Positions 44,413-56,254 of a stretch of 64,000 nt of DNA are shown one piece after another. This stretch comes from Chloroflexota bacterium (GTDB taxonomy: Bacteria > Chloroflexota > Anaerolineae > Anaerolineales > Villigracilaceae), in NCBI GenBank assembly GCA_016195815.1, contig JACPYX010000023.1:1-64000 (forward strand), written 5' to 3'. The notes under the pieces were generated by a model. It was not told where the DNA came from and made no database searches. It was given only the letters and a program-made list of their open reading frames with translations. The position numbers were made by a program, and so were the translations under genes. The first letter of the stretch is position 1; the number at the start of each line of letters is the position of its first letter.

Positions 44413-45249
44413 TTACTCCGCTTGACATTTTGGGCAGATGTGTGTGCCGCGCTGCCCGACAAACATTTTTTGTATCGTTGTTCCGCACACCGGACAAGGC
44501 TCTCCGCCGCGGCCATAGACGCGGAAATGATTTTGAAATTCGCCGCCGCGATAGACCCAGTCTATGCTGGCGCCGTTGCGGCGGATGCCTTCTTGAAGAA
44601 CAGACTGGATGGCTCGATGCAAATTTTCAGTCTGTTTGACGCTGACTGAATTTGAGAGTGCCAGCGGATGCAGCTTTGCGATATGCAAACACTCGTCGGT
44701 GTAGATATTGCCGAGGCCGGCCAGGAAGCCCTGATCGAGAAGCAATGGCTTGAGTTGGCGATGACGCGCCTGCAAAGCGGCAAACAGCCAGCGCGGGGTG
44801 AAATCTTTGCTCAACGGTTCAGGGCCGAGGTTTCCCAATACTTTGGCTGCATCGTTGGTCAGCCAGATACGGCCAAATTTGCGCGTGTCGTTGAAAACGA
44901 GGCTGCTCCAGCTGCCGTCCTCGGCAACCGGCTGCGACAAGTTCGGCGCAGAGAGCAACAAGATCAGCCTGTCATGCTTCCCCGGTTTAATTTTACCTTC
45001 TTTGACAAACAAATCTCCGCTCATGCGGAGATGTATAAGGAGATTGTAAGCTGTTAGTTTAATATTCAGGAACTTGGCGCGGCGGCTCACGCTTTGAATA
45101 ACCTGACCCTTGATCTGTTCCTTGAATTTCTTTGCAGATGGCATCGCCAGCGTACGCGCCCAGCGCACGTCCGCCTCGAGGACGGCCTTGCCGACGAGGT
45201 GCGGAGTCAATTTGCGGGCGATGGTTTCAACTTCAGGAAGTTCGGGCAT
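44413..45249 (-). CDS. mutM: Formamidopyrimidine-DNA glycosylase
   Basis: MPELPEVETIARKL; C-terminal zinc finger CPVCGTTIQKMFVGQRGTHICPKCQ. Confidence 0.96.
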   Translation of the reverse strand: MPELPEVETIARKLTPHLVGKAVLEADVRWARTLAMPSAKKFKEQIKGQVIQSVSRRAKFLNIKLTAYNLLIHLRMSGDLFVKEGKIKPGKHDRLILLLSAPNLSQPVAEDGSWSSLVFNDTRKFGRIWLTNDAAKVLGNLGPEPLSKDFTPRWLFAALQARHRQLKPLLLDQGFLAGLGNIYTDECLHIAKLHPLALSNSVSVKQTENLHRAIQSVLQEGIRRNGASIDWVYRGGEFQNHFRVYGRGGEPCPVCGTTIQKMFVGQRGTHICPKCQAE

Positions 45250-45283
45250 GGTTGTAGCGGTTAGCAATAAGCCATTAGTTACT

Positions 45284-45325
45284 AGCGTTTAGCTGTCGAA
45301 GGCCAACTGCTAACAGCTAAACGCT
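45284..45325. repeat. 13-bp perfect inverted repeat in the prs-mutM intergenic region
   Basis: AGCGTTTAGCTGT-16 nt-ACAGCTAAACGCT. Confidence 0.75.
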
Positions 45326-45330
45326 AAAAG

Positions 45331-46329
45331 CTATTCGTTAAACATCTCTCCCACACTGCGGCCTTCGTGGGCGCGCCTGATGACCTCGCCCAACAGCGGA
45401 GACACAGACAACACAGTGATGCGGCCTTCGAGGTGTTTCATGTTTTCAGGTGAGATCGGGACTGAGTCAGTGGTGATGATATGTTTGATCGGCAGAGCGG
45501 CCAGACGTTCCGCAGCGCTGCGGGAAAGAATCGGATGGACGAATGCCAGATAAACATCGAGCGCTCCCTGTGACTTCACAAGGTTAATCGCCTGAGAGAT
45601 CGAGCCGCCCGTGTCAACCTCATCGTCCACGATCAGCACGTCGCGATTTTCCACTTCGCCGATCAAGGTCAACGCTTCGGCCCTGGCATCGTTGCCTGAG
45701 CGACGTTTTTCTATAAAGGCCACAGGCATATCCATATCGGCCGCGTAGTTGCGCGCTTTTTTGGCGAAGCCCAGATCGGTGGCGACAACGACCGGGTTGG
45801 TGAGTTTGGCGCGCATCGTGGCGTTGATGTGGTCAATGATCAAGTGCGAAGCGGTCAACACATCGCCGGGGATGGAGAAAAAGCCCTGGACCTGACCCGC
45901 ATGGGGGTCGAGGGTCATGTAGCGGTCCGCGCCGGCCACTTCGATCATGTCTGCTACAAGGCGTCCCGTGATCGGCACGCGCGGCTGATCTTTTTTATCC
46001 GAACGCCCATAAGCGAGATATGGAATGACCGCCGTGATACGCGCGGCCGAGTCGAGGCGCAGAGTCTGGATGGTGATGAGCAGTTCCATTAAGTTGCGAT
46101 GAACCGGCGAAGCCGTGTGTTGGATGAGATACACATCCTGTCCGCGCACGCTTTGTCTGAGTTTGACGAACAGATTTTCATTGGGAAATTCGATCATCTC
46201 ATAGTCGCACAAAGGCGCGCCGAGATATTCCGCGATCTTGCCTGCAAGTATGGGTGAGCCTGTCCCCGAAAATAATTTGACTTCGCCGTACACTTTCATT
46301 TCGTGATGGTGGTGATTATGATTGCTCAT
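45331..46329 (-). CDS. prs: Ribose-phosphate pyrophosphokinase
   Basis: TRITAVIPYLAYGRSDKKDQPRVPITGRLVADM-type PRPP synthase region; DVLIVDDEVDTGGSISQA. Confidence 0.95.
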   Translation of the reverse strand: MSNHNHHHHEMKVYGEVKLFSGTGSPILAGKIAEYLGAPLCDYEMIEFPNENLFVKLRQSVRGQDVYLIQHTASPVHRNLMELLITIQTLRLDSAARITAVIPYLAYGRSDKKDQPRVPITGRLVADMIEVAGADRYMTLDPHAGQVQGFFSIPGDVLTASHLIIDHINATMRAKLTNPVVVATDLGFAKKARNYAADMDMPVAFIEKRRSGNDARAEALTLIGEVENRDVLIVDDEVDTGGSISQAINLVKSQGALDVYLAFVHPILSRSAAERLAALPIKHIITTDSVPISPENMKHLEGRITVLSVSPLLGEVIRRAHEGRSVGEMFNE

Positions 46330-46340
46330 TTCTTCTCCAG

Positions 46341-46373
46341 ATGAGCGTTACACTCCGAACGCAAAACGCTCAT
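46341..46373. repeat. 9-bp inverted repeat upstream of prs
   Basis: ATGAGCGTT...AACGCTCAT. Confidence 0.5.
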
Positions 46374-46429
46374 AAAATGTATGACGATATATTTTTCCAT
46401 GCCGCGAAAGCGGATGCGTTTCCCATAGA

Positions 46430-47425
46430 TCATTTCGCCCTCCCGTTCGTCAACATCTTGACCGCTTCCCGCGGCGACAAACTTCTTTTATAGACCTGCA
46501 TCATTACTTCATCATATTTGGATTCGGGAACGCGTTCGCGAAATTGGCTGACCAGCGTTTCCTGTAAAACCGCATCCATCTCAGACTCGAGGCGGGCACG
46601 CTCACGAGCGGCCCAATCCCCGCTGACGCGTAAGTGCTCCGCGTGAATCGCGATCTGTTCGGCCAGCTCAGGGATGCCCGTCCCGTCAATCGAAATTGTC
46701 CGTTGAATGGGTGGAATCCAAAGCGCCGCGTCTTTGACCTGCGGCGCGGCGCTCATATATTTTCCGTGATGTGAAAATATGTGTTGGGTTGGGTGCGACA
46801 GCTCCAGCATGGACTTCAACGCTTTTTCCGTGTTTTCCACGCCGGGACGGTCTGCTTTGTTGACGACCAGAATATCCGCGATTTCCAGAATGCCCGCTTT
46901 AATGGCCTGGATGTCATCGCCGAGTCCGGGCGCTTCCACTACCAGCGTGGTGTGGGCCAATCGAGCGATGTCCACTTCACTTTGTCCCGCGCCGACCGTT
47001 TCGATCATCACGATCTCAAAGCCCGCCGCGTCGAAGACCTGTGTCATGCCTGCCGTGGCCTGCGCCAATCCGCCGAGTGAACCGCGCGTCGCCATTGAGC
47101 GGATGAATATGCCCGCGTCGCCGCTCAAATCTCGCATGCGCACGCGGTCGCCCAGCACCGCGCCGCCCGTGAACGGGCTGGACGGATCCACTGCGACAAT
47201 CGCCACGCGTTTATTTTGTTTGCGAAAATATAATGCCAGTTGATTGACCAGCGACGATTTACCGGTTCCCGGCGCGCCCGTTACGCCGATCAGATGCGCT
47301 TTGCCAGCGTGGGGAAACAGCGTCGCCAAAGCCGCGCGGCCATCCTGGGTGTCATTCTCGATATGAGTTAACACGCGCGCCAGCGCAAGACGATCACCGT
47401 TGAGAATCTGAGTCACCAAATCCAT
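46430..47425 (-). CDS. meaB: Methylmalonyl-CoA mutase-associated GTPase MeaB
   Basis: GVTGAPGTGKSSLVNQLALYFR; VAIVAVDPSSPFTGGAVLGDRVRM; ETVGAGQSEVDIA. Confidence 0.95.
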   Translation of the reverse strand: MDLVTQILNGDRLALARVLTHIENDTQDGRAALATLFPHAGKAHLIGVTGAPGTGKSSLVNQLALYFRKQNKRVAIVAVDPSSPFTGGAVLGDRVRMRDLSGDAGIFIRSMATRGSLGGLAQATAGMTQVFDAAGFEIVMIETVGAGQSEVDIARLAHTTLVVEAPGLGDDIQAIKAGILEIADILVVNKADRPGVENTEKALKSMLELSHPTQHIFSHHGKYMSAAPQVKDAALWIPPIQRTISIDGTGIPELAEQIAIHAEHLRVSGDWAARERARLESEMDAVLQETLVSQFRERVPESKYDEVMMQVYKRSLSPREAVKMLTNGRAK

Positions 47426-47471
47426 CTATAATCCTTACGTTTAACGTTTTACGTGTTGCGTATTACGCAAC

Positions 47472-47867
47472 TTATTTCACCGCTTCTTTTATATCCTTGA
47501 TGATATCTTCCGTCGAAGCGCCGGGACCGTATACCCCGGTCACGCCGATTTGCTTCAATTGCGGCACATCTTCATCCGGTACAATGCCGCCGATGAAAAC
47601 CTTGACCTTGCTTTGCCCGTTGGCCTTCAGCAATTCGAGAATGCGCGGCGCAAGCGCCATGTGCGCGCCTGAAAGAATGGACAATCCGACGATATCCACA
47701 TCCTCCTGCAAGGCGGCCTCGGCGATCATCTCAGGGGTTTGACGCAGGCCGGTGTAGATCACCTCCATACCGGCGTCGCGCAACGCACGCGCTACCACTT
47801 TTGCGCCGCGGTCGTGCCCGTCCAGGCCGGGCTTGGCCACCAGCACACGGATCTTTTTGTCTGTCAT
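47472..47867 (-). CDS. Cobalamin-binding subunit of a methylmalonyl-CoA mutase family enzyme
   Basis: [42 protein letters not shown] (DxHxxG B12-binding motif). Confidence 0.95.
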
Positions 47868-48038: not shown

Positions 48039-48308
48039 ATGCAAACGCGCGATTACTGGCCTCGCTGGGCCGAATCATTGCGACGCTACAAGCTTGATGC
48101 GCTTGCCGTCTTGTTGCTTGAAGCGGGCGGGCCTCTCAATCTGCTTGGCGCACAAGCACTCTATATTGGAAGTCCTTTTCTCGGCGAAAGTGCGGCCGCT
48201 TTAGCTCGCACGCTTGAATCGTCCGACGAAACACACGCCTTTGCATCTTATCTCGATCCTGAAGAAAGCGCTGAAAGCCACAGCGCAGGCGGGGGAGCGG
48301 CTTCATGA
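48039..48308 (+). CDS. Small protein of unknown function, first gene of the 48-56 kb cluster
   Basis: 89 aa ORF overlapping the next start (ATGA-type). Confidence 0.6.
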   Translation: MQTRDYWPRWAESLRRYKLDALAVLLLEAGGPLNLLGAQALYIGSPFLGESAAALARTLESSDETHAFASYLDPEESAESHSAGGGAAS

Positions 48309-49042
48309 ATCTCATTGCACTTGGCATCGTTAGTTTCTCTGGCATTCTCCTGCTGGCCTTTTCATTGATCAAACGAAAATCTCCTCCTAAATTTCGCATC
48401 ATCCCGGCGTTGACGCGTCTTTATCGCGCCATCGGCCTTAGTGTGGAAGACGGCACCCGCGTCTTCATTCACCTGGGACCGATGAGTCTGCTCACGCCGC
48501 GCGGCGGTGCGCCGCTGGCGGGACTCGGAATGCTGCGCCATCTCACCGAGCGGACTTCGCTCAGTGATCGTCCGCCGATTGCCGCGGCGGGCGAGGCATC
48601 TTTGGCCTTGCTGGCGCAGGATACACTCGAAGCAGGTTACGAAGCTGCGGGCGCGGGCGAATTTTATCAACCCTTATCTGGCCGTCTGATTGGATTGACT
48701 CCCTTCTCTTCTGCGGCGGGGGCCATGTCCATTATTCGTGATGAAGATATTTCGGCCAGCATCCTGATCGGTCACTTCGGCCCGGAAGCCGCGCTCATGG
48801 CGGAAGCCGCTGAACGTGAGAACACATTTTTGCTGGGCGCCAGCGATGATCTTTCTTCACAGGCCGCGTTGTATGCCTCGGCACAGGAAGTGTTGATTGG
48901 TGAAGAACTTTATGCGGCGGGCGCATATCTGGGCGCGACCGCCTCACACGCGGCCAGCATCACAGTCCAGGATATTTTGCGCTGGCTCATTATTTTGGGC
49001 CTGCTGGCGGGCGCGGCTTTGAAACTTTTCGGGATGATCTAA
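48305..49042 (+). CDS. DUF6754-like membrane protein
   Basis: Two terminal TM segments around a soluble domain; family name from memory. Confidence 0.6.
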   Translation: MNLIALGIVSFSGILLLAFSLIKRKSPPKFRIIPALTRLYRAIGLSVEDGTRVFIHLGPMSLLTPRGGAPLAGLGMLRHLTERTSLSDRPPIAAAGEASLALLAQDTLEAGYEAAGAGEFYQPLSGRLIGLTPFSSAAGAMSIIRDEDISASILIGHFGPEAALMAEAAERENTFLLGASDDLSSQAALYASAQEVLIGEELYAAGAYLGATASHAASITVQDILRWLIILGLLAGAALKLFGMI

Positions 49043-49653
49043 TGCGGACTGTTGCAGTAATTCTCGCGGTTCTAACAGGCCTGATCGTTCTGCTGGGTTA
49101 TTTTTTTCCGGTCTTATCCGGCGTCCAAACCGTCGTTTTAAGTTGGACTATTATTTTGGCCGGGACAGCCACAGTGGTCGGTGTGTTCAGCTTGATTCTG
49201 GTTCATTTCAATAAAGTCACTCGCCGCGAAAAGGGGAGTGTGTACAGTGTGCTTTTATTGATGGCCTTGTTTGTGACTTTTATTTTTGGAATCACACTTG
49301 GGCCGGATGACCCCAACATGCAATTACTGGTCAACGCTATTATTGTGCCGGTTGAGTCTACATTGATGGCGCTGCTGGCAGTCACTCTTCTCTATGCCGG
49401 TGTGCGTCTCCTGCGCCGCCGAACCGACTTGATGAGCGTCATCTTTCTTCTGACCGCCGCGTTCATGTTATTTGCCTCGGCAACCCTGCCGTTCGGTGAG
49501 ATCAGCCTGTTGAATAACTGGATCCGTCCCTGGGTCCAGCAAGTGCTCGCACTGGGCGGGGCGCGCGGCATTTTGATAGGCGTTGCACTTGGCACATTAA
49601 CCACCGGTTTACGCATCCTATTCGGCGCAGACCGGCCGTATGGGGGCAAATAA
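49042..49653 (+). CDS. Polytopic membrane protein, unknown function
   Basis: 203 aa, about six hydrophobic segments; TAATG coupling with the next gene. Confidence 0.65.
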   Translation: MRTVAVILAVLTGLIVLLGYFFPVLSGVQTVVLSWTIILAGTATVVGVFSLILVHFNKVTRREKGSVYSVLLLMALFVTFIFGITLGPDDPNMQLLVNAIIVPVESTLMALLAVTLLYAGVRLLRRRTDLMSVIFLLTAAFMLFASATLPFGEISLLNNWIRPWVQQVLALGGARGILIGVALGTLTTGLRILFGADRPYGGK

Positions 49654-52142
49654 TGGCCGATACCATTAAGTGTCCCGTTTGCGGTGAGGTCAACACAGCC
49701 GACCTGGAATTTTGTCAAAATTGCCAATCGCGCCTTCAGCCTTTTACCGGCCCATTGCAAGGTGAAAACGCCCCGCTTCAACCGGGACAGAATCCGACTA
49801 AAAAAGTTACCTCTGAGCTTGAACCCATTCTGCCGCAATGGCTGCGCGAAGCGCGCCAGCAGTCCCGCCAAACTGATGGCGAAGAGCCGCGCCTTGCCGC
49901 TCAAGATACTCCCACCGTCCCGATATCGTCCGCACCAGATTTGCTGGCCGGCCTTGCATCACAAAACGACGATGATGAAGATGCGCCCGATTGGCTGCTG
50001 AACATCACGGGCAATGCTCCCGCCAGGAAGAAAAAAAACGAACCGGAAGACTCAAATGTCAAGTGGGTGGAAGTCGGCAGTCCCGACGATTTTTCCGAAA
50101 CGCCTTCCGAGGAAATAAAAACATCTCCTACTACTCCGACGTGGATGACCCCGCAAGAGTCCGCGCCGGAAAAGGACGAACTGGCTGCCTGGCTTTCTCA
50201 AGTGGAACAATCTCCCGCATCTTTTGCGGACGAAAAAGAGTCCCCGGTTCCTTCAGTCTCATCTGCGCCTGATGTTTCCTCTGTCATCGCCGACAAGCCC
50301 GATTGGTTGGAGAATCTACAAGCCGGGATTTCCACAATTGACAACGCACCTGTTGGCCAACCGCCCGTCTCCGGCGATGAAACCAAAGACTGGCTGCATA
50401 GTTTGGATTCTGGCATGACTTCGTTGGAATCGCCTGCCCAACCCGCGCCGGTTTCGAGCGATGAAACTCCTGACTGGTTGAAGAATCTGGGCGCAAATTC
50501 AATTTCATTTGAACAGAAGCCGCCAGAACAACCCGCCCCACAAAATCAACCTGAACCGGCATCCGATATTCCTGATTGGCTGAGAACCTTTGGCGAACCG
50601 CGCATATCTTCGGCGCCAGAGGGCGCAGATTCGGCGTCAAATGGGATGATGCCCGATTGGTTGAAGGCCGCCGCCCCGTCTGGCGAGAAGCCGCCTGTTG
50701 ACCAACCAGAACCCGCTTCCGACCGCTCGGCGGATATGCCATCCTGGTTATCCTCGCTGAAACCGATTGAGGCACAACAGCCGCAAGAACCCCCTGCACG
50801 CGCGTTGACGCCCGATGAAGCGGCGGCTCAGAAGCCATTTACCGCACCTGCCTTTGCGGAAGATTCGCTTTCGAGCGATGATGTGGATGCCATTTTCGGT
50901 TCGTTGCAGATGCCCGATTGGCTTTCGAGCGCCGCCGCGCCGAGTCAACCGCCCCTGACAGAGAGTCCGCCGCCCGCCGCACAATCTGGCGAATCGATTG
51001 CGCCAGCCGAATTGCCTTCGTGGGTGCAAGCCATGCGCCCGGTAGAATCGGCGCCCCCCAATGCCAGTTCAAGTGAACTGGTTGACTCTGCCTTTGAGAC
51101 AGATGGTCCGCTGGCTGGGTTGCAAGGCGTTTTGCCCGCGCTTCCTGGAGGCATAAAGGCGTCTTCACGGCCTAAATCATATTCCATCAAACTCAATGCC
51201 AGCGAAGAACAGCAGGCGCAATCCGCCTTGCTTGAACAAATCCTGGCGCAGGAAACCGCAACCATTCCAATGAAGTCGTCTTCGATGATCCTGTCGCAGC
51301 GCGTTTTGCGCTGGGTCATTACGGCATTGCTATTCATTTTTGTCGGCGGCATCCTGTTTGCAAGAACAGAGATTTTTACCTTACCAGGCCGAATAGCTTT
51401 GCCCAACGATGAAACCGAGGCGGCGCTCTCAGTAGTGGACACAATCCCTGAAGGCGTTCCCGTCCTGGCAGTCTTCGATTATGAGCCGTCGTTGGCTGGA
51501 GAGTTGGAGGCTGTCGGCGCGCCGTTGTTCAACCGTTTGCTTTTATTGAAACACCCTAATCTTGCGATTGTCTCCACTTCACCGACTGGCCCGGCGCTGG
51601 CTGAACGCTTCATGTCAACAACGATGGCCGAACGCGGATATCAGCGCGGCGCGCAATATGTTGATCTCGGATATTTGGCCGGCGGCCTGGCCGGTGTGTA
51701 TGACTTTGCCCAGAACCCGGCGACAGTCCTGCCTCTCGGCGCGGATGGGACGCCTGTCTGGCAATCTGCGTTGTTACAGGGCAAAACGCGTCTCTCGGAC
51801 TTCGCGGCGGTCATCGTTTTGACCGATAGTGTCGAAGCCGGACGCGTGTGGGTCGAGCAGGCGGGTCCGTTTCGCGGCAACGCTTCGTTTGTAGTTATCT
51901 CAAGCGCACAGGCTGGCCCGCTGTTGATGCCTTACCTGCAATCTGGACAGATCAATGGTCTGGTCGCAGGTTTGAACAGCGCGGCAAAGATCGAGCAGGC
52001 GAATGGCCAGCCCGGGCTGGCCCGGCGTTATTGGGACGCATACAGCCTAGGTCTTTTGCTGGCGGTCGCCGTCATGTTCCTGGGCGGATTCTGGAATTTT
52101 GTCATCGGCTTGCAGGTTCGCCGCTCACAAGGTGCTAAATAA
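49653..52142 (+). CDS. Zinc-ribbon protein with repeated PDWL motifs, TM and extracytoplasmic domain
   Basis: N-terminal CPVCGEVNTADLEFCQNC zinc ribbon; about ten (P)DWLxxL motifs in a disordered region; TM (VLRWVITALLFIFVGGILF). Confidence 0.7.
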   Translation: MADTIKCPVCGEVNTADLEFCQNCQSRLQPFTGPLQGENAPLQPGQNPTKKVTSELEPILPQWLREARQQSRQTDGEEPRLAAQDTPTVPISSAPDLLAGLASQNDDDEDAPDWLLNITGNAPARKKKNEPEDSNVKWVEVGSPDDFSETPSEEIKTSPTTPTWMTPQESAPEKDELAAWLSQVEQSPASFADEKESPVPSVSSAPDVSSVIADKPDWLENLQAGISTIDNAPVGQPPVSGDETKDWLHSLDSGMTSLESPAQPAPVSSDETPDWLKNLGANSISFEQKPPEQPAPQNQPEPASDIPDWLRTFGEPRISSAPEGADSASNGMMPDWLKAAAPSGEKPPVDQPEPASDRSADMPSWLSSLKPIEAQQPQEPPARALTPDEAAAQKPFTAPAFAEDSLSSDDVDAIFGSLQMPDWLSSAAAPSQPPLTESPPPAAQSGESIAPAELPSWVQAMRPVESAPPNASSSELVDSAFETDGPLAGLQGVLPALPGGIKASSRPKSYSIKLNASEEQQAQSALLEQILAQETATIPMKSSSMILSQRVLRWVITALLFIFVGGILFARTEIFTLPGRIALPNDETEAALSVVDTIPEGVPVLAVFDYEPSLAGELEAVGAPLFNRLLLLKHPNLAIVSTSPTGPALAERFMSTTMAERGYQRGAQYVDLGYLAGGLAGVYDFAQNPATVLPLGADGTPVWQSALLQGKTRLSDFAAVIVLTDSVEAGRVWVEQAGPFRGNASFVVISSAQAGPLLMPYLQSGQINGLVAGLNSAAKIEQANGQPGLARRYWDAYSLGLLLAVAVMFLGGFWNFVIGLQVRRSQGAK

Positions 52143-52804
52143 TGTCTCCAGATCTGATCGTGGGCGCGCTGGCTTTTCTATTCACGCTGATGATATTTAG
52201 TTATTTGATTGGCGATAATCCCCTCTTTCGAGTGGCGGTTTATGTATTTGTCGGCGTTTCGGCGGGTTATGTAGCGGCAGTTGCGTTTCGCCAGGTGCTT
52301 TTGCCAAATCTGTTATATCCGCTTGTCAATGGGACGACAACACAGCGCGCCCTGCTTGCAACCCCCTTGTTGTTAAGTGGACTCTTGCTGATGAAGGCCT
52401 GGGCGCCTCTTTCGCGGCTTGGCACTCCTTCGATGGCAGTTCTGGTCGGCGTGAGCGCGGCAGTTGCAATTGGCGGCGCAGTGACGGGCACTCTTCTTCC
52501 GCAAATCGGCGTCACCATCAATATGTTCGACCTGCGTACTTCAACTTCTCCATTTACGGCATTGTTCAACGGCGCGTTTATTCTGGCGGGTGTTGTTACC
52601 ACATTGGTCTATTTCCATTTTGGCGCACGCACAACTGCGGATGGTTCGGTGCGCCGCTTCGGTTTGATCGAATTCATTGCGTTCATCGGCAGTATCTTCC
52701 TCGCCTTTACGCTGGGCGTATTGTTCGCCGGAGTTTATTCTGCGGCGCTGACGGCTCTCATCGAACGCCTGTATTTCTTCGGGACATTCTTTGGGTTGGG
52801 TTAA
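52142..52804 (+). CDS. Polytopic membrane protein, unknown function
   Basis: 220 aa, about six TM; TAATG coupled to the preceding gene. Confidence 0.65.
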   Translation: MSPDLIVGALAFLFTLMIFSYLIGDNPLFRVAVYVFVGVSAGYVAAVAFRQVLLPNLLYPLVNGTTTQRALLATPLLLSGLLLMKAWAPLSRLGTPSMAVLVGVSAAVAIGGAVTGTLLPQIGVTINMFDLRTSTSPFTALFNGAFILAGVVTTLVYFHFGARTTADGSVRRFGLIEFIAFIGSIFLAFTLGVLFAGVYSAALTALIERLYFFGTFFGLG

Positions 52805-52816
52805 TCATAAGGATTT

Positions 52817-54574
52817 ATGCCTGCTTCTCTCGTTCAAGGTGACTCACTTCTGGCTGTAGATGTCGGCGCGGCGACCACGCGTGCTGTGTTCTTCGACGTT
52901 GTGGAAGGGGAGTATCGTTTTCTCGCGGCGAGTTCCGCGCCGTCTACCGCCGAGGCTCCATTCAAAGATCTTATCGAGGGTGTGCGCGACGCCATCACCA
53001 GGCTGCAATCGGTGACCGGGCGCACGCTGCTCGACGGGAATAGCCAGCTGATTACGCCGTCCCAGCCCGACGGGTCCGGTGTGGATGCGTTTGTTTCCAC
53101 TTTATCTGCAGGCCCGGCCTTGAAGACGGTCATCATTGGTTTGTTGTCCGACGTGTCGCTCGAAAGTGCGCGGCGATTGGCCGAGACGACTTACGCGCGC
53201 ATCATCGATTCAATAGGATTGAACGATCATCGCAAGCCCGACCAGCAAATTGATACGCTCCTGCGCCTGCGGCCCGACATGGTCATCATCACCGGCGGCG
53301 CGGACGGCGGCGCGTCGCGTTCAATTCACAAGACTCTTGAGCCGGCGGGATTGGCGGGCTATCTGCTCGCGCCCGAGAAACGCCCGGCAGTTTTATTTGC
53401 AGGCAATCAAAAGCTGGACGATGAAGTAAAGGAAATGTTGGGCAGCGTGACTTCGGAGCTTCACTTTAGCCCGAATGTACGCCCTTCGCTCGATACCGAA
53501 GACATTGAACCGGCTGCGCGTCAATTGGCTGACCTTGTTATTGGAGTCCGCAGGCGCCAGCTCAAAGGCGTGGATGTTTTGCAAGCCTGGTCTGGCGGAC
53601 GTGTTCTGCCGACGGCCTACGCGGAGGGACGCATGTTGCGTTTCCTCGGCCAGGTTTACGGCGGGACGAAGGGCGGCATTCTCGGCGTGGACCTGGGCGC
53701 GTCGGCGGCAGTGATCGCGGCCGGTTTCAAAGATAAAACCGTGCTGGGCGTGTATCCGCAATTTGGGTTGGGCGAGAATCTGCCCGCCCTTTTGCAATAC
53801 ACCCAGCTCGAAGATATTCTGCGCTGGTTGCCTCTCGATATTTCAACCGGCACTCTGCGCGATTACCTGTTCCAAAAATCCTTGTATCCTGCCTCCATCC
53901 CCGCCACCAAAGAAGATCAAACGATAGCCCAGGCTGTCTCGCGCCAGGCTTTGTATTTGGCGATGCAAACTGCCCGGCGTGATTTTCCACGGTCGGCCCG
54001 CCCGCCAAAGGCAGGCTTACTCCCGTTGTTCGAGCCTATCCTGGCGGGCGGCGGTGCGTTGGGCGATGCTCCCACGCCCGGACAAAGTTTATTATTGCTG
54101 TTGGATGCCATTCAGCCCGTCGGCGTGACGACCATCATTTTGGATCGCAATAATTTACTTCCGCTTCTGGGCGCGGCTGCGGCCCGCAACAGCCTCCTGC
54201 CTGTGCAGGTTTTGGATTCGGGCGCGTTCCAGAGTCTCGGCTCGGTGGTCTCGGTCATCGCTTCTGCGAGTTATGGCGAATTGGTTGTGCGCGCCAAGTT
54301 GGTTTACGATAATGGTACTGAAGCCCGCACCGATGTTAAATACGGCAGTCTCGAATTGATTCCGTTGGCGACGGGCCAGTCTGCGAAATTGACCCTCCAG
54401 CCGCAGCGCGGCGCGGACGTGGGCTTTGGTCCCGGACGAGGCGGTACGCTGTCCGTCAGCGGAGGCGCGATGGGCGTGGTCATTGATGGCCGCGGGCGCC
54501 CGCTGGCCTTGCCCGAAGATTCGGTGCGGCGGCGTGAATTGATCAAAAAGTGGATATGGACGATTGGAGGCTGA
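52817..54574 (+). CDS. GlmL/MutL-like ASKHA-fold protein (glutamate-mutase accessory family)
   Basis: DSLLAVDVGAATTRAVFFDVVEGEYRFLAASSAPST; RPDMVIITGGADGGASRS; GGILGVDLGASAAVIAAG. Confidence 0.8.
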   Translation: MPASLVQGDSLLAVDVGAATTRAVFFDVVEGEYRFLAASSAPSTAEAPFKDLIEGVRDAITRLQSVTGRTLLDGNSQLITPSQPDGSGVDAFVSTLSAGPALKTVIIGLLSDVSLESARRLAETTYARIIDSIGLNDHRKPDQQIDTLLRLRPDMVIITGGADGGASRSIHKTLEPAGLAGYLLAPEKRPAVLFAGNQKLDDEVKEMLGSVTSELHFSPNVRPSLDTEDIEPAARQLADLVIGVRRRQLKGVDVLQAWSGGRVLPTAYAEGRMLRFLGQVYGGTKGGILGVDLGASAAVIAAGFKDKTVLGVYPQFGLGENLPALLQYTQLEDILRWLPLDISTGTLRDYLFQKSLYPASIPATKEDQTIAQAVSRQALYLAMQTARRDFPRSARPPKAGLLPLFEPILAGGGALGDAPTPGQSLLLLLDAIQPVGVTTIILDRNNLLPLLGAAAARNSLLPVQVLDSGAFQSLGSVVSVIASASYGELVVRAKLVYDNGTEARTDVKYGSLELIPLATGQSAKLTLQPQRGADVGFGPGRGGTLSVSGGAMGVVIDGRGRPLALPEDSVRRRELIKKWIWTIGG

Positions 54575-54578
54575 CGCA

Positions 54579-55634
54579 ATGCTGGCGGCTGTTCATCACA
54601 TCATCCCTCTAACTACCATCGTGCGCGAAAGACTCCTGCCCGTGAAGGGCAAAGTGTTGGCGCGGCTGAATCAAAAAGTCAGCCCGACGGATATCGTCGC
54701 CGAAGCGGCCTGGGCGCGCGAACACATCTTGCTGGATGTGGCGCGTATTCTCAATTTGTCTGCCGATGCGGCGGATAGACTCATTCGATGCAAAGTGGGA
54801 GATCGTCTCCCGGCCGGCGCGGTGATTGCCACCGGGCGCGGCCTGTTGCCGAAAATGGTCAAGGTGCCGCGTGAAACTCGTGTGACGGCATCCGGCGGAG
54901 GTCAGGTTTTGCTCGAGGCCGGTGAGTCGCGCATGGAATTGCGGGCGGGCATATCCGGAATCGTTGTGCAGATCATCCCTGACCGTGGCGTTGTCATTCA
55001 GACCTCCGGCGCGCTGATCCAGGGTGTGTGGGGCAACGGCCGCGTGGACACGGGCGTGATGATCAATCTGGCGGAAAAGCCGGATACGGTTTTGACGGAA
55101 GGCCGCCTGGATGTAAGTTTTCGCGGTTCGGTCATCATCGCCGCGCAGGCCAGGGATGTTGAAACGTTACAGGCCGCGGCAGAACTTCCGGTGCGCGGTT
55201 TGATCCTTGCAAGCCTGTTCCCCTCATTGTTACCGGCGGCGCGCGAGATGCGTTACCCGATCGTATTGACCGACGGATTCGGTTCGATGCCGATGAACTC
55301 TGCCGCCTATCGTTTGCTGACCACCAATGCGAAGCGCGAAGCCACGCTCAACGCTGAAGTGTATGATCGTTATAGCGGTGCGCGGCCCGAGGTCATCATC
55401 CCCCTGCCTGTTTCATCCGAACAGGCTTCACCGCGCGATGTCGAAACATTTGCCGCGGGTCAAACTGTGCGAATGCGCCGTCCGCCGATGGCCGGCACGA
55501 TCGGGACGGTTTTGGCTTTGCATCCCGGCTTAACGACTCTGCCTGGCGGTTTGCGGGCCGTATGTGCCAATATTAAATTTGAGAACGGCGAGCAAGCGCT
55601 CGTCCCTCTCGTAAATCTTGAAGTTGTGGGATAA
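54579..55634 (+). CDS. Protein of unknown function with barrel-sandwich/KOW-like regions
   Basis: VKGKVLARLNQKVSPTDIVAEA; C-terminal MAGTIGTVLALHPGLTTLPGGLRAVCANIKFENGEQALVPLVNLEVVG. Confidence 0.55.
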   Translation: MLAAVHHIIPLTTIVRERLLPVKGKVLARLNQKVSPTDIVAEAAWAREHILLDVARILNLSADAADRLIRCKVGDRLPAGAVIATGRGLLPKMVKVPRETRVTASGGGQVLLEAGESRMELRAGISGIVVQIIPDRGVVIQTSGALIQGVWGNGRVDTGVMINLAEKPDTVLTEGRLDVSFRGSVIIAAQARDVETLQAAAELPVRGLILASLFPSLLPAAREMRYPIVLTDGFGSMPMNSAAYRLLTTNAKREATLNAEVYDRYSGARPEVIIPLPVSSEQASPRDVETFAAGQTVRMRRPPMAGTIGTVLALHPGLTTLPGGLRAVCANIKFENGEQALVPLVNLEVVG

Positions 55635-55668
55635 TGGAAACACAAGCACATCATGCGAGGAGATGACC

Positions 55669-56196
55669 ATGTACGAAGGCGATCAACAAAACTTTGATGC
55701 TCCGCCGCCGGAAGAGAACAACAACCGCACCTTCTTCACTGCGGTCGGTATTCTGGGCGGTATTGTGTTGATTTCACTGGCTTGTTTAGCGGCGTTTTAT
55801 TTCTTCAATGTCCGGCCAAGCCAAGGAGCGAACAGCGCCAATGCGACCGCGCAAGCGATCCAAAACGCGCAAGTTGCGCAGGCCTTGACTTCGACTGCCC
55901 AGGCACAATCTTTCCCGACCGCGACCGTCACGCCGACAGCGACTCCGCTGGTGGCACAGGGAACTGCGACAGCAACGGTCACCGCTCTTAATCTTGACCC
56001 GATTACGGCCACCGTTGGCGCGGCTTTGACCCAGGCCGCACTGGCGCAGCTTACCGTCGTGCCCACCATGTCGGCCCTGCCCCAGACCGGCATCGCCGAC
56101 GAATACGGCGCGCCGGGCCTGATTATCATAGGCGCGGCGTTGATCGCAGTGATCTTCCTTGTGCGAAGATTAAGAGTTGTACCCGTAAAGAAGTAG
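55669..56196 (+). CDS. Membrane protein with C-terminal LPQTG sorting-like signal
   Basis: N-terminal TM, Thr/Ala-rich spacer, LPQTG-hydrophobic-RRLRVVPVKK end. Confidence 0.7.
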   Translation: MYEGDQQNFDAPPPEENNNRTFFTAVGILGGIVLISLACLAAFYFFNVRPSQGANSANATAQAIQNAQVAQALTSTAQAQSFPTATVTPTATPLVAQGTATATVTALNLDPITATVGAALTQAALAQLTVVPTMSALPQTGIADEYGAPGLIIIGAALIAVIFLVRRLRVVPVKK

Positions 56197-56215
56197 ATTA
56201 TAAATTTATAAATTG

Positions 56216-56254
56216 AATGGGACGGCAGAATATCTGCCGTCCCATTTTGCTTTT
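56216..56254 (+). terminator. Strong terminator after the 48-56 kb cluster
   Basis: AATGGGACGGCAGAatatCTGCCGTCCCATTTTG. Confidence 0.85.

Follow-up and report, generated by a model that had tools for sequence, protein, structure and literature searches.

A conserved envelope operon of Chloroflexota with a separable ASKHA-containing core and a scaffold bearing FtsZ-tail-like motifs

The contig JACPYX010000023.1 of a Chloroflexota bacterium (assembly GCA_016195815.1) carries, at positions 48039–56196, a single run of eight open reading frames (ORFs) on the + strand, and the question raised by this locus is whether the products work together and, if so, as what. A preliminary description, made from the letters of the window (the whole stretch of 64,000 nucleotides analysed here), had placed eight co-directional genes in this region and read them as one envelope-associated machine rather than a metabolic pathway. 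All eight ORFs are indeed present at these positions and are designated A (starting at 48039), B (48305), C (49042), D (49653), E (52142), F (52817), G (54579), and H (55669). As described below, this envelope operon is genuine, strongly conserved, and so far uncharacterised, and its core, which contains an ASKHA protein, F, can be separated from the rest.

Conservation was assessed in two collections that share a few genomes, with ORFs in other genomes called by a simple script. The first comprises 301 Chloroflexota genomes, of which 54 loci (L061–L114) were taken for further reading in detail; F was matched in 171 and G in 140 of the 301 genomes. The second consists of the best 80 of 569 relatives, from named assemblies labelled Chloroflexi/Chloroflexota or Anaerolineae-type. 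The exact order ABCDEFGH is found in 50 of these 80 loci, and most of the remaining ones have it as well, broken where a contig ends or an ORF is split. Coupling, i.e., a gap of 20 bases or less counted where both genes are present, occurs at the A/B junction in 60 of 60 cases, at B/C in 62 of 62, at C/D in 61 of 62, at D/E in 73 of 73, and at E/F in 74 of 77; F and G are adjacent in all 80 loci and coupled in 62. The eight-gene order is maintained through much of Anaerolineae, and the sequence identity of F falls to about 45% within the 80 loci. In other classes, at about 30% identity of F, the cluster is still recognisable in the 54-locus set, and genomes that we take to be those of Chloroflexus aurantiacus, Roseiflexus, and Herpetosiphon keep the order B-C-D-E-F with G at a second site. 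Order and coupling across the 80 loci therefore indicate conservation far beyond chance.

The preliminary description had named two outcomes that would speak against a common machine, namely gene order not conserved in relatives and assignment of all members to unrelated known functions. Neither was observed: order and coupling are kept over a large divergence, and in scans of Pfam, NCBIfam, and homologues only F, through its ASKHA fold, passes the cut-off of any family whose function is known. A search of the available literature on DUF6754, the family of B, or on the cluster itself found nothing relevant.

Within the window, the genes are tightly packed. The expected overlaps of stop and start codons are present (4 bases at A/B and 1 base each at B/C, C/D, and D/E), and the remaining gaps measure 12 bases (E-F), 4 bases (F-G), and 34 bases (G-H). 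The strong terminator that had been noted at the end of the run is represented by a hairpin with a T-rich tail (Table 1). In the same region, matches in a sigma-70 promoter scan were not above those in shuffled controls, and an RNA element search found no known element.

The composition of the cluster was examined in 30 genomes across the phylum, selected for matches to F and mostly also to G. The identical seven genomes hold C, E, and the ectodomain of D, and the 23 others have none of the three; B was detected in six of the seven by Pfam and, as a diverged copy, in the seventh (G168, locus L077) by a local profile. Since these seven genomes are spread over several families, the pattern looks like repeated joint gain or loss rather than the inheritance of one clade, judged by presence and absence. 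D itself divides along the same line. In five loci where D lies beside F and B, C, and E are missing (L080, L083, L088, L090, and L092), it keeps the zinc ribbon and LPxWL motifs and has no membrane helix; in two more (L078 and L100) one helix region is predicted and the ectodomain is missing. The helix-free D in loci without B, C, and E indicates that the motif-bearing half travels with F-G and the membrane half with B, C, and E. The cluster thus consists of a cytosolic core, which comprises F-G and in many cases a zinc-ribbon protein resembling D and exists also without the membrane part, and a membrane set (B, C, E, and the membrane part of D). Together with the conserved order and the predicted envelope features, the joint gain or loss of C, E, and the D ectodomain supports one envelope-associated machine, as far as sequences can tell.

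Table 1. Positions of the genes, domains, and terminator-like element of the cluster in the window
Feature	Position	Strand	Description	Basis
A	48039..48308	+	89 residues; small soluble conserved protein; adjoins B in 60 loci
B	48305..49042	+	245 residues; DUF6754; helix at each end, soluble domain between
C	49042..49653	+	203 residues; polytopic membrane protein; conserved GARGILIGxALG close to C-terminus
D	49653..52142	+	829 residues; scaffold: zinc ribbon, PxWL array, helix, Rossmann-like extracytoplasmic domain, helix
D, zinc ribbon	49671..49724	+	residues 7–24; CxxC...CxxC	Pfam DUF7577 (8.3e-08) and zinc-ribbon families
D, motif array	49833..50924	+	residues 61–424; nine P-x-W-[LMI] motifs	sequence pattern
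D, first transmembrane helix	51288..51359	+	residues 546–569	hydropathy
D, extracytoplasmic alpha/beta domain	51360..52049	+	invariant WxxQ; near-invariant PY and LGY	alignment
D, second transmembrane helix	52050..52106	+	residues 800–818	hydropathy
E	52142..52804	+	220 residues; polytopic membrane protein; conserved GDNxxFR and GTLxPQ
F	52817..54574	+	585 residues; GlmL/MutL-type ASKHA protein; extra C-terminal domain ending IDARGRPL
G	54579..55634	+	351 residues; barrel-sandwich hybrid, swivelling beta/beta/alpha domain, KOW/SH3 domain
H	55669..56196	+	175 residues; surface protein: helix, Thr/Pro-rich linker, LPQTG, helix, basic tail
Terminator-like hairpin	56215..56247	+	15 pairs, T-rich tail; closes gene run

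Membrane helices were predicted from simple hydropathy. The several polytopic membrane proteins that had been anticipated are found in C and E but not in B, which has two helices only. B belongs to DUF6754 (PF20539; 9.1e-22, 77.9 bits against a gathering score of 27), and its central soluble domain is probably cytoplasmic, judging from the positive-inside rule. DUF6754 was detected in 66 of the 301 Chloroflexota genomes and in none of 14 control genomes. For the cluster as a whole, a restriction to the phylum holds only within the collections used, which are mainly Chloroflexota. For C and E, no convincing family match was obtained even when all homologues were scanned. D has the architecture that had been proposed for it, a zinc-ribbon/PDWL scaffold with a predicted extracytoplasmic domain. 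The structure of this outer domain and the second helix was predicted with a local confidence (pLDDT) of 93.7, and a fold search with the ectodomain returned generic Rossmann-like matches only, the top one at E = 7e-4, with low template modelling (TM) scores. A common origin of B and the D ectodomain was considered and rejected by hhalign. The envelope features extend to H, for which the preliminary description of an LPQTG protein is borne out: its homologues mostly show LP[QNGT]TG, a helix, and a basic tail (one reads MPTSG), and sortase matches occur in its own genome and in each of the 41 genomes scanned for them. With motif, helix, basic tail, and a sortase in the genome, H has the features of a putative LPxTG sortase substrate, its score against Pfam Gram_pos_anchor being 18.2 bits, slightly under the cut-off of 20. 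An envelope location fits the predicted membrane helices, the D ectodomain, and H. A has no family match in Pfam, including a scan of its homologues. An anti-phage defence system was also considered and rejected, as PADLOC gave 0 matches for all eight proteins.

The most distinctive part of D is its long, low-complexity motif region. Thirty-eight D homologues contain 447 PxW[LM] motifs, from 1–2 up to 60 copies each, which account for 60% of all their Trp residues. The flanks are constrained as well: position −2 is D/E in 64% of the motifs (background 15%), position −1 is L/I/V/M in 79% (background 19%), and position +4 is R/K in 51% (background 6%). The strict form [DE][LIVM]PxW[LM][RK] occurs 137 times in D and not once in 306,309 residues of neighbouring ORFs, and in the window's D a restricted pattern is found eight times against 0.1 expected in shuffles. 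Two Chloroflexus-type loci (L114 and L086) encode a D without the zinc ribbon and with 48–60 PxWL motifs, many at a 16-residue period. In a large-genome D-F-G lineage (L080, L083, and L090; family f28), D has a conserved SRPREAAANVFASMLGVAS-like segment after the motifs.

The D motif, [DE][LVI]PxWL[RK], resembles the C-terminal tail of FtsZ. In Escherichia coli this tail reads DYLDIPAFLRKQAD and is bound by FtsA, ZipA, MinC, ZapD, ClpX, and SlmA (PMC4117426). The FtsZ encoded by the same genome as the cluster ends in DDLDIPTFLRNRR, with LDIPTFLRNR, and nine other FtsZ tails are alike; the D copies of Chloroflexia include DVPAWLR. The aromatic residue differs, being Trp in D versus Phe in all ten FtsZ tails examined.

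F is a member of the ASKHA superfamily through Pfam MutL (PF13941; 2.1e-58, 198.6 bits against a gathering score of 27, residues 12–467) and is the sole match to this family in its genome. The earlier assignment to a GlmL/MutL-like ATPase fold holds for the MutL family match but not for GlmL proper, as F scores 90.2 and 69.6 bits against NCBIfam GlmL models whose cut-offs are 475 (equivalog) and 204 (subfamily). Beyond these scores, F differs from the family it shares this domain with in its extra IDARGRPL domain, in its coupling to membrane genes, and in the lack of a glutamate mutase, which had been reported for the neighbourhood and extends to the whole genome (PF06368 absent; one match over the cut-off among 41 genomes). 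Among 45 F homologues, the site motifs D15, G17, T21, D292, G294, and G412 are kept in 32, 40, 40, 35, 39, and 45, respectively, so that the phosphate and adenosine motifs are retained in most; IDARGRPL is almost invariant, with D557 and R559 present in all 45. No solved homologue of F was found by sequence, and kinship of its C-terminal domain with G was rejected on comparison. One F homologue (L089:9098–11275) carries two PxWL motifs, otherwise typical of D, in its own C-terminal extension.

F is unmatched by the Pfam FtsA family PF14450, which was detected in 296 of the 301 genomes, with the best match in the genome of the cluster on contig C6; a role of F as a substitute for FtsA was rejected on account of this near-universal presence. 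All F-positive genomes except G178 are contained in the list of FtsW/RodA-positive genomes. Since the genomes lacking FtsW are mostly small and probably related, this pattern is confounded by phylogeny, and a link of F to peptidoglycan was rejected for this reason. In one lineage (L094:14737–19900), F-G lies about 3 kb from mreB, mreC, mreD, PBP2, and a RodA-like gene.

G had been described as barrel-sandwich-like, which is correct for its N-terminal part but incomplete, as it also has swivelling and KOW domains. Its predicted structure has a pLDDT of 92.7. The N-terminal part matches Pfam RnfC_N in 14 of 30 homologues (up to 3e-06) and NqrA_N in 3 of 30, but unlike RnfC and NqrA, with which it shares the barrel-sandwich, G is without an FeS or FMN domain. 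The swivelling domain matches AF_0055 (TM-score 0.67, normalised to the target) in a fold search, and the C-terminal domain matches the KOW domains of SPT5, NusG, and uL24 in a profile search against the PDB, with E-values down to 5.9e-08. The best fold match of whole G is Thermotoga maritima NusG, with PetP also among the matches. The pairing of an ASKHA protein (F) with a swivelling domain (G) as one functional unit is also seen in diol dehydratase reactivases; F and G differ from these in being separate proteins, in the barrel-sandwich and KOW domains of G, and in having no dehydratase.

Both PilM and FtsA, which are actin-fold proteins, bind cytoplasmic tails, those of the membrane proteins PilN and FtsN, respectively (PMC7613929). 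The FtsZ-tail-like motif of D and the placement of F in the superfamily of FtsA and PilM suggest, by analogy, that F may read the motifs of D. In our preferred but tentative reading, which we consider possible and somewhat short of probable, the cluster encodes one envelope-spanning assembly of two modules in which F-G is docked on the D array and regulates the membrane complex. F and G would form a cytosolic nucleotide-binding complex, and B, C, and E would assemble with D into a membrane complex. D would bridge the two, its cytoplasmic [DE][LVI]PxWL[RK] array serving as a docking tail for the ASKHA module, as in the FtsA/FtsZ-tail or PilM/PilN-tail pairs but multivalent. The transmembrane and Rossmann-like part of D would lie on the outer face beside B, C, and E. 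Whether the membrane complex assembles or is active would depend on the nucleotide state of F-G, presumably set by ATP, and H would be a sortase-anchored surface partner in Anaerolineae. The likeness to known pairs has its bounds. An ASKHA protein and a short D-I/V/L-P-x-aromatic-L-R motif in one system recall FtsA and the FtsZ tail, but F is not FtsA, and the motif carries Trp, comes in as many as 60 copies, and sits on a zinc-ribbon membrane protein. The combination of a cytosolic ASKHA component with a membrane protein that has a cytoplasmic docking segment and an outer domain recalls PilM-PilN and GspL, but F has no PilM sequence match, the outer domain of D is Rossmann-like, and no pilin, PilO/PilNO-type subunit, secretin, or traffic ATPase was found in the cluster with Pfam and NCBIfam.

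Several observations weigh against docking of F on D. With FtsA so widespread, FtsA itself could be the intended partner of the FtsZ-like motifs. Within ASKHA, F is at best distantly related to FtsA, and its nearest relatives by sequence are GlmL proteins. In some lineages the nucleotide motifs of F have decayed, which speaks against an essential ATPase in these lineages, and in a few lineages F-G occurs without a recognisable D nearby. The first of these points leads to an explanation that we regard as unlikely, in which the D array mimics the FtsZ tail so that FtsA, SepF, or other tail binders of the ordinary divisome are recruited to it, bringing the complex to the septum, and F-G is otherwise employed in the same complex. 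The resemblance of the motif to each organism's own FtsZ tail, the role of that tail as a known hub, and the near-universal FtsA agree with it, but Trp takes the place of Phe, the motif-bearing part of D occurs with F-G and not alone, and F is undetected in about 130 of the 301 genomes though FtsA is almost always there. A highly improbable alternative starts from the kinship of F instead. GlmL proteins are thought to be reactivases or chaperones of a B12-dependent mutase, and a divergent block upstream (44413–47867) comprises mutM (44413), prs (45331), meaB (46430), and a B12-binding methylmalonyl-CoA mutase subunit (47472), so that F might serve this mutase. MeaB and the B12-binding subunit are both present in 14 of the 80 other loci, but the same block carries prs in 17 and mutM in 14, and hence is ordinary shared gene order that gives no functional hint; it is limited to part of Anaerolineae, and most F loci are without it. 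A B12-mutase partner was rejected on these grounds, along with the distance of F from the GlmL cut-off, the absence of glutamate mutase, and the coupling to membrane genes.

G invites two further explanations. The membrane set could be a transporter or energy-coupling complex, as the RnfC/NqrA-like part of G and an ATP synthase neighbourhood would hint: in three Chloroflexales-type loci (L101, L102, and L104), G stands at the head of several genes on one strand, first one or two response-regulator-like genes and then ATP synthase genes. This linkage may however be one ancestral arrangement, and in L103, taken for Herpetosiphon, the regulators are near G and the atp genes are not; neither C nor E has an above-cut-off match to a respiratory membrane subunit, Pfam found no other Rnf/Nqr subunits among the cluster proteins, and no redox cofactor motif was noticed. 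Such a transporter or energy-coupling complex seems quite improbable. We give still less credence to the idea that F-G, with zinc ribbons and KOW, acts from a membrane tether on RNA, ribosomes, or transcription, for instance in co-translational insertion. The SPT5, NusG, and uL24 matches of G speak for such a factor, but KOW/SH3 folds also make protein contacts, as PetP illustrates, the cluster has no RNA-binding partner, and the patchy distribution would be unexpected of a translation factor.

As the most specific idea that can be tested and has the support of the evidence, we propose that an actin/Hsp70-fold protein docks multivalently on an FtsZ-tail-like array. A bolder form of it, which we think rather doubtful, is a Chloroflexota envelope machine with a new actin-fold/tail pair, in which a GlmL-like ASKHA protein reads dozens of PxWL motifs on a membrane scaffold and couples its nucleotide state to the B-C-D-E complex, possibly at the division sites of these largely filamentous bacteria. 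If the ASKHA/PxWL idea is true, FtsA-FtsZ and PilM-PilN would gain a new counterpart among actin-fold docking systems, unusual in its multivalent array. Either way, a portable cytosolic core, F-G and often a D-like protein, is set apart from the membrane module, which guides joint purification. For a phylum whose envelope is poorly understood, such an operon, strictly conserved and containing several membrane families without a known function, offers a concrete target.

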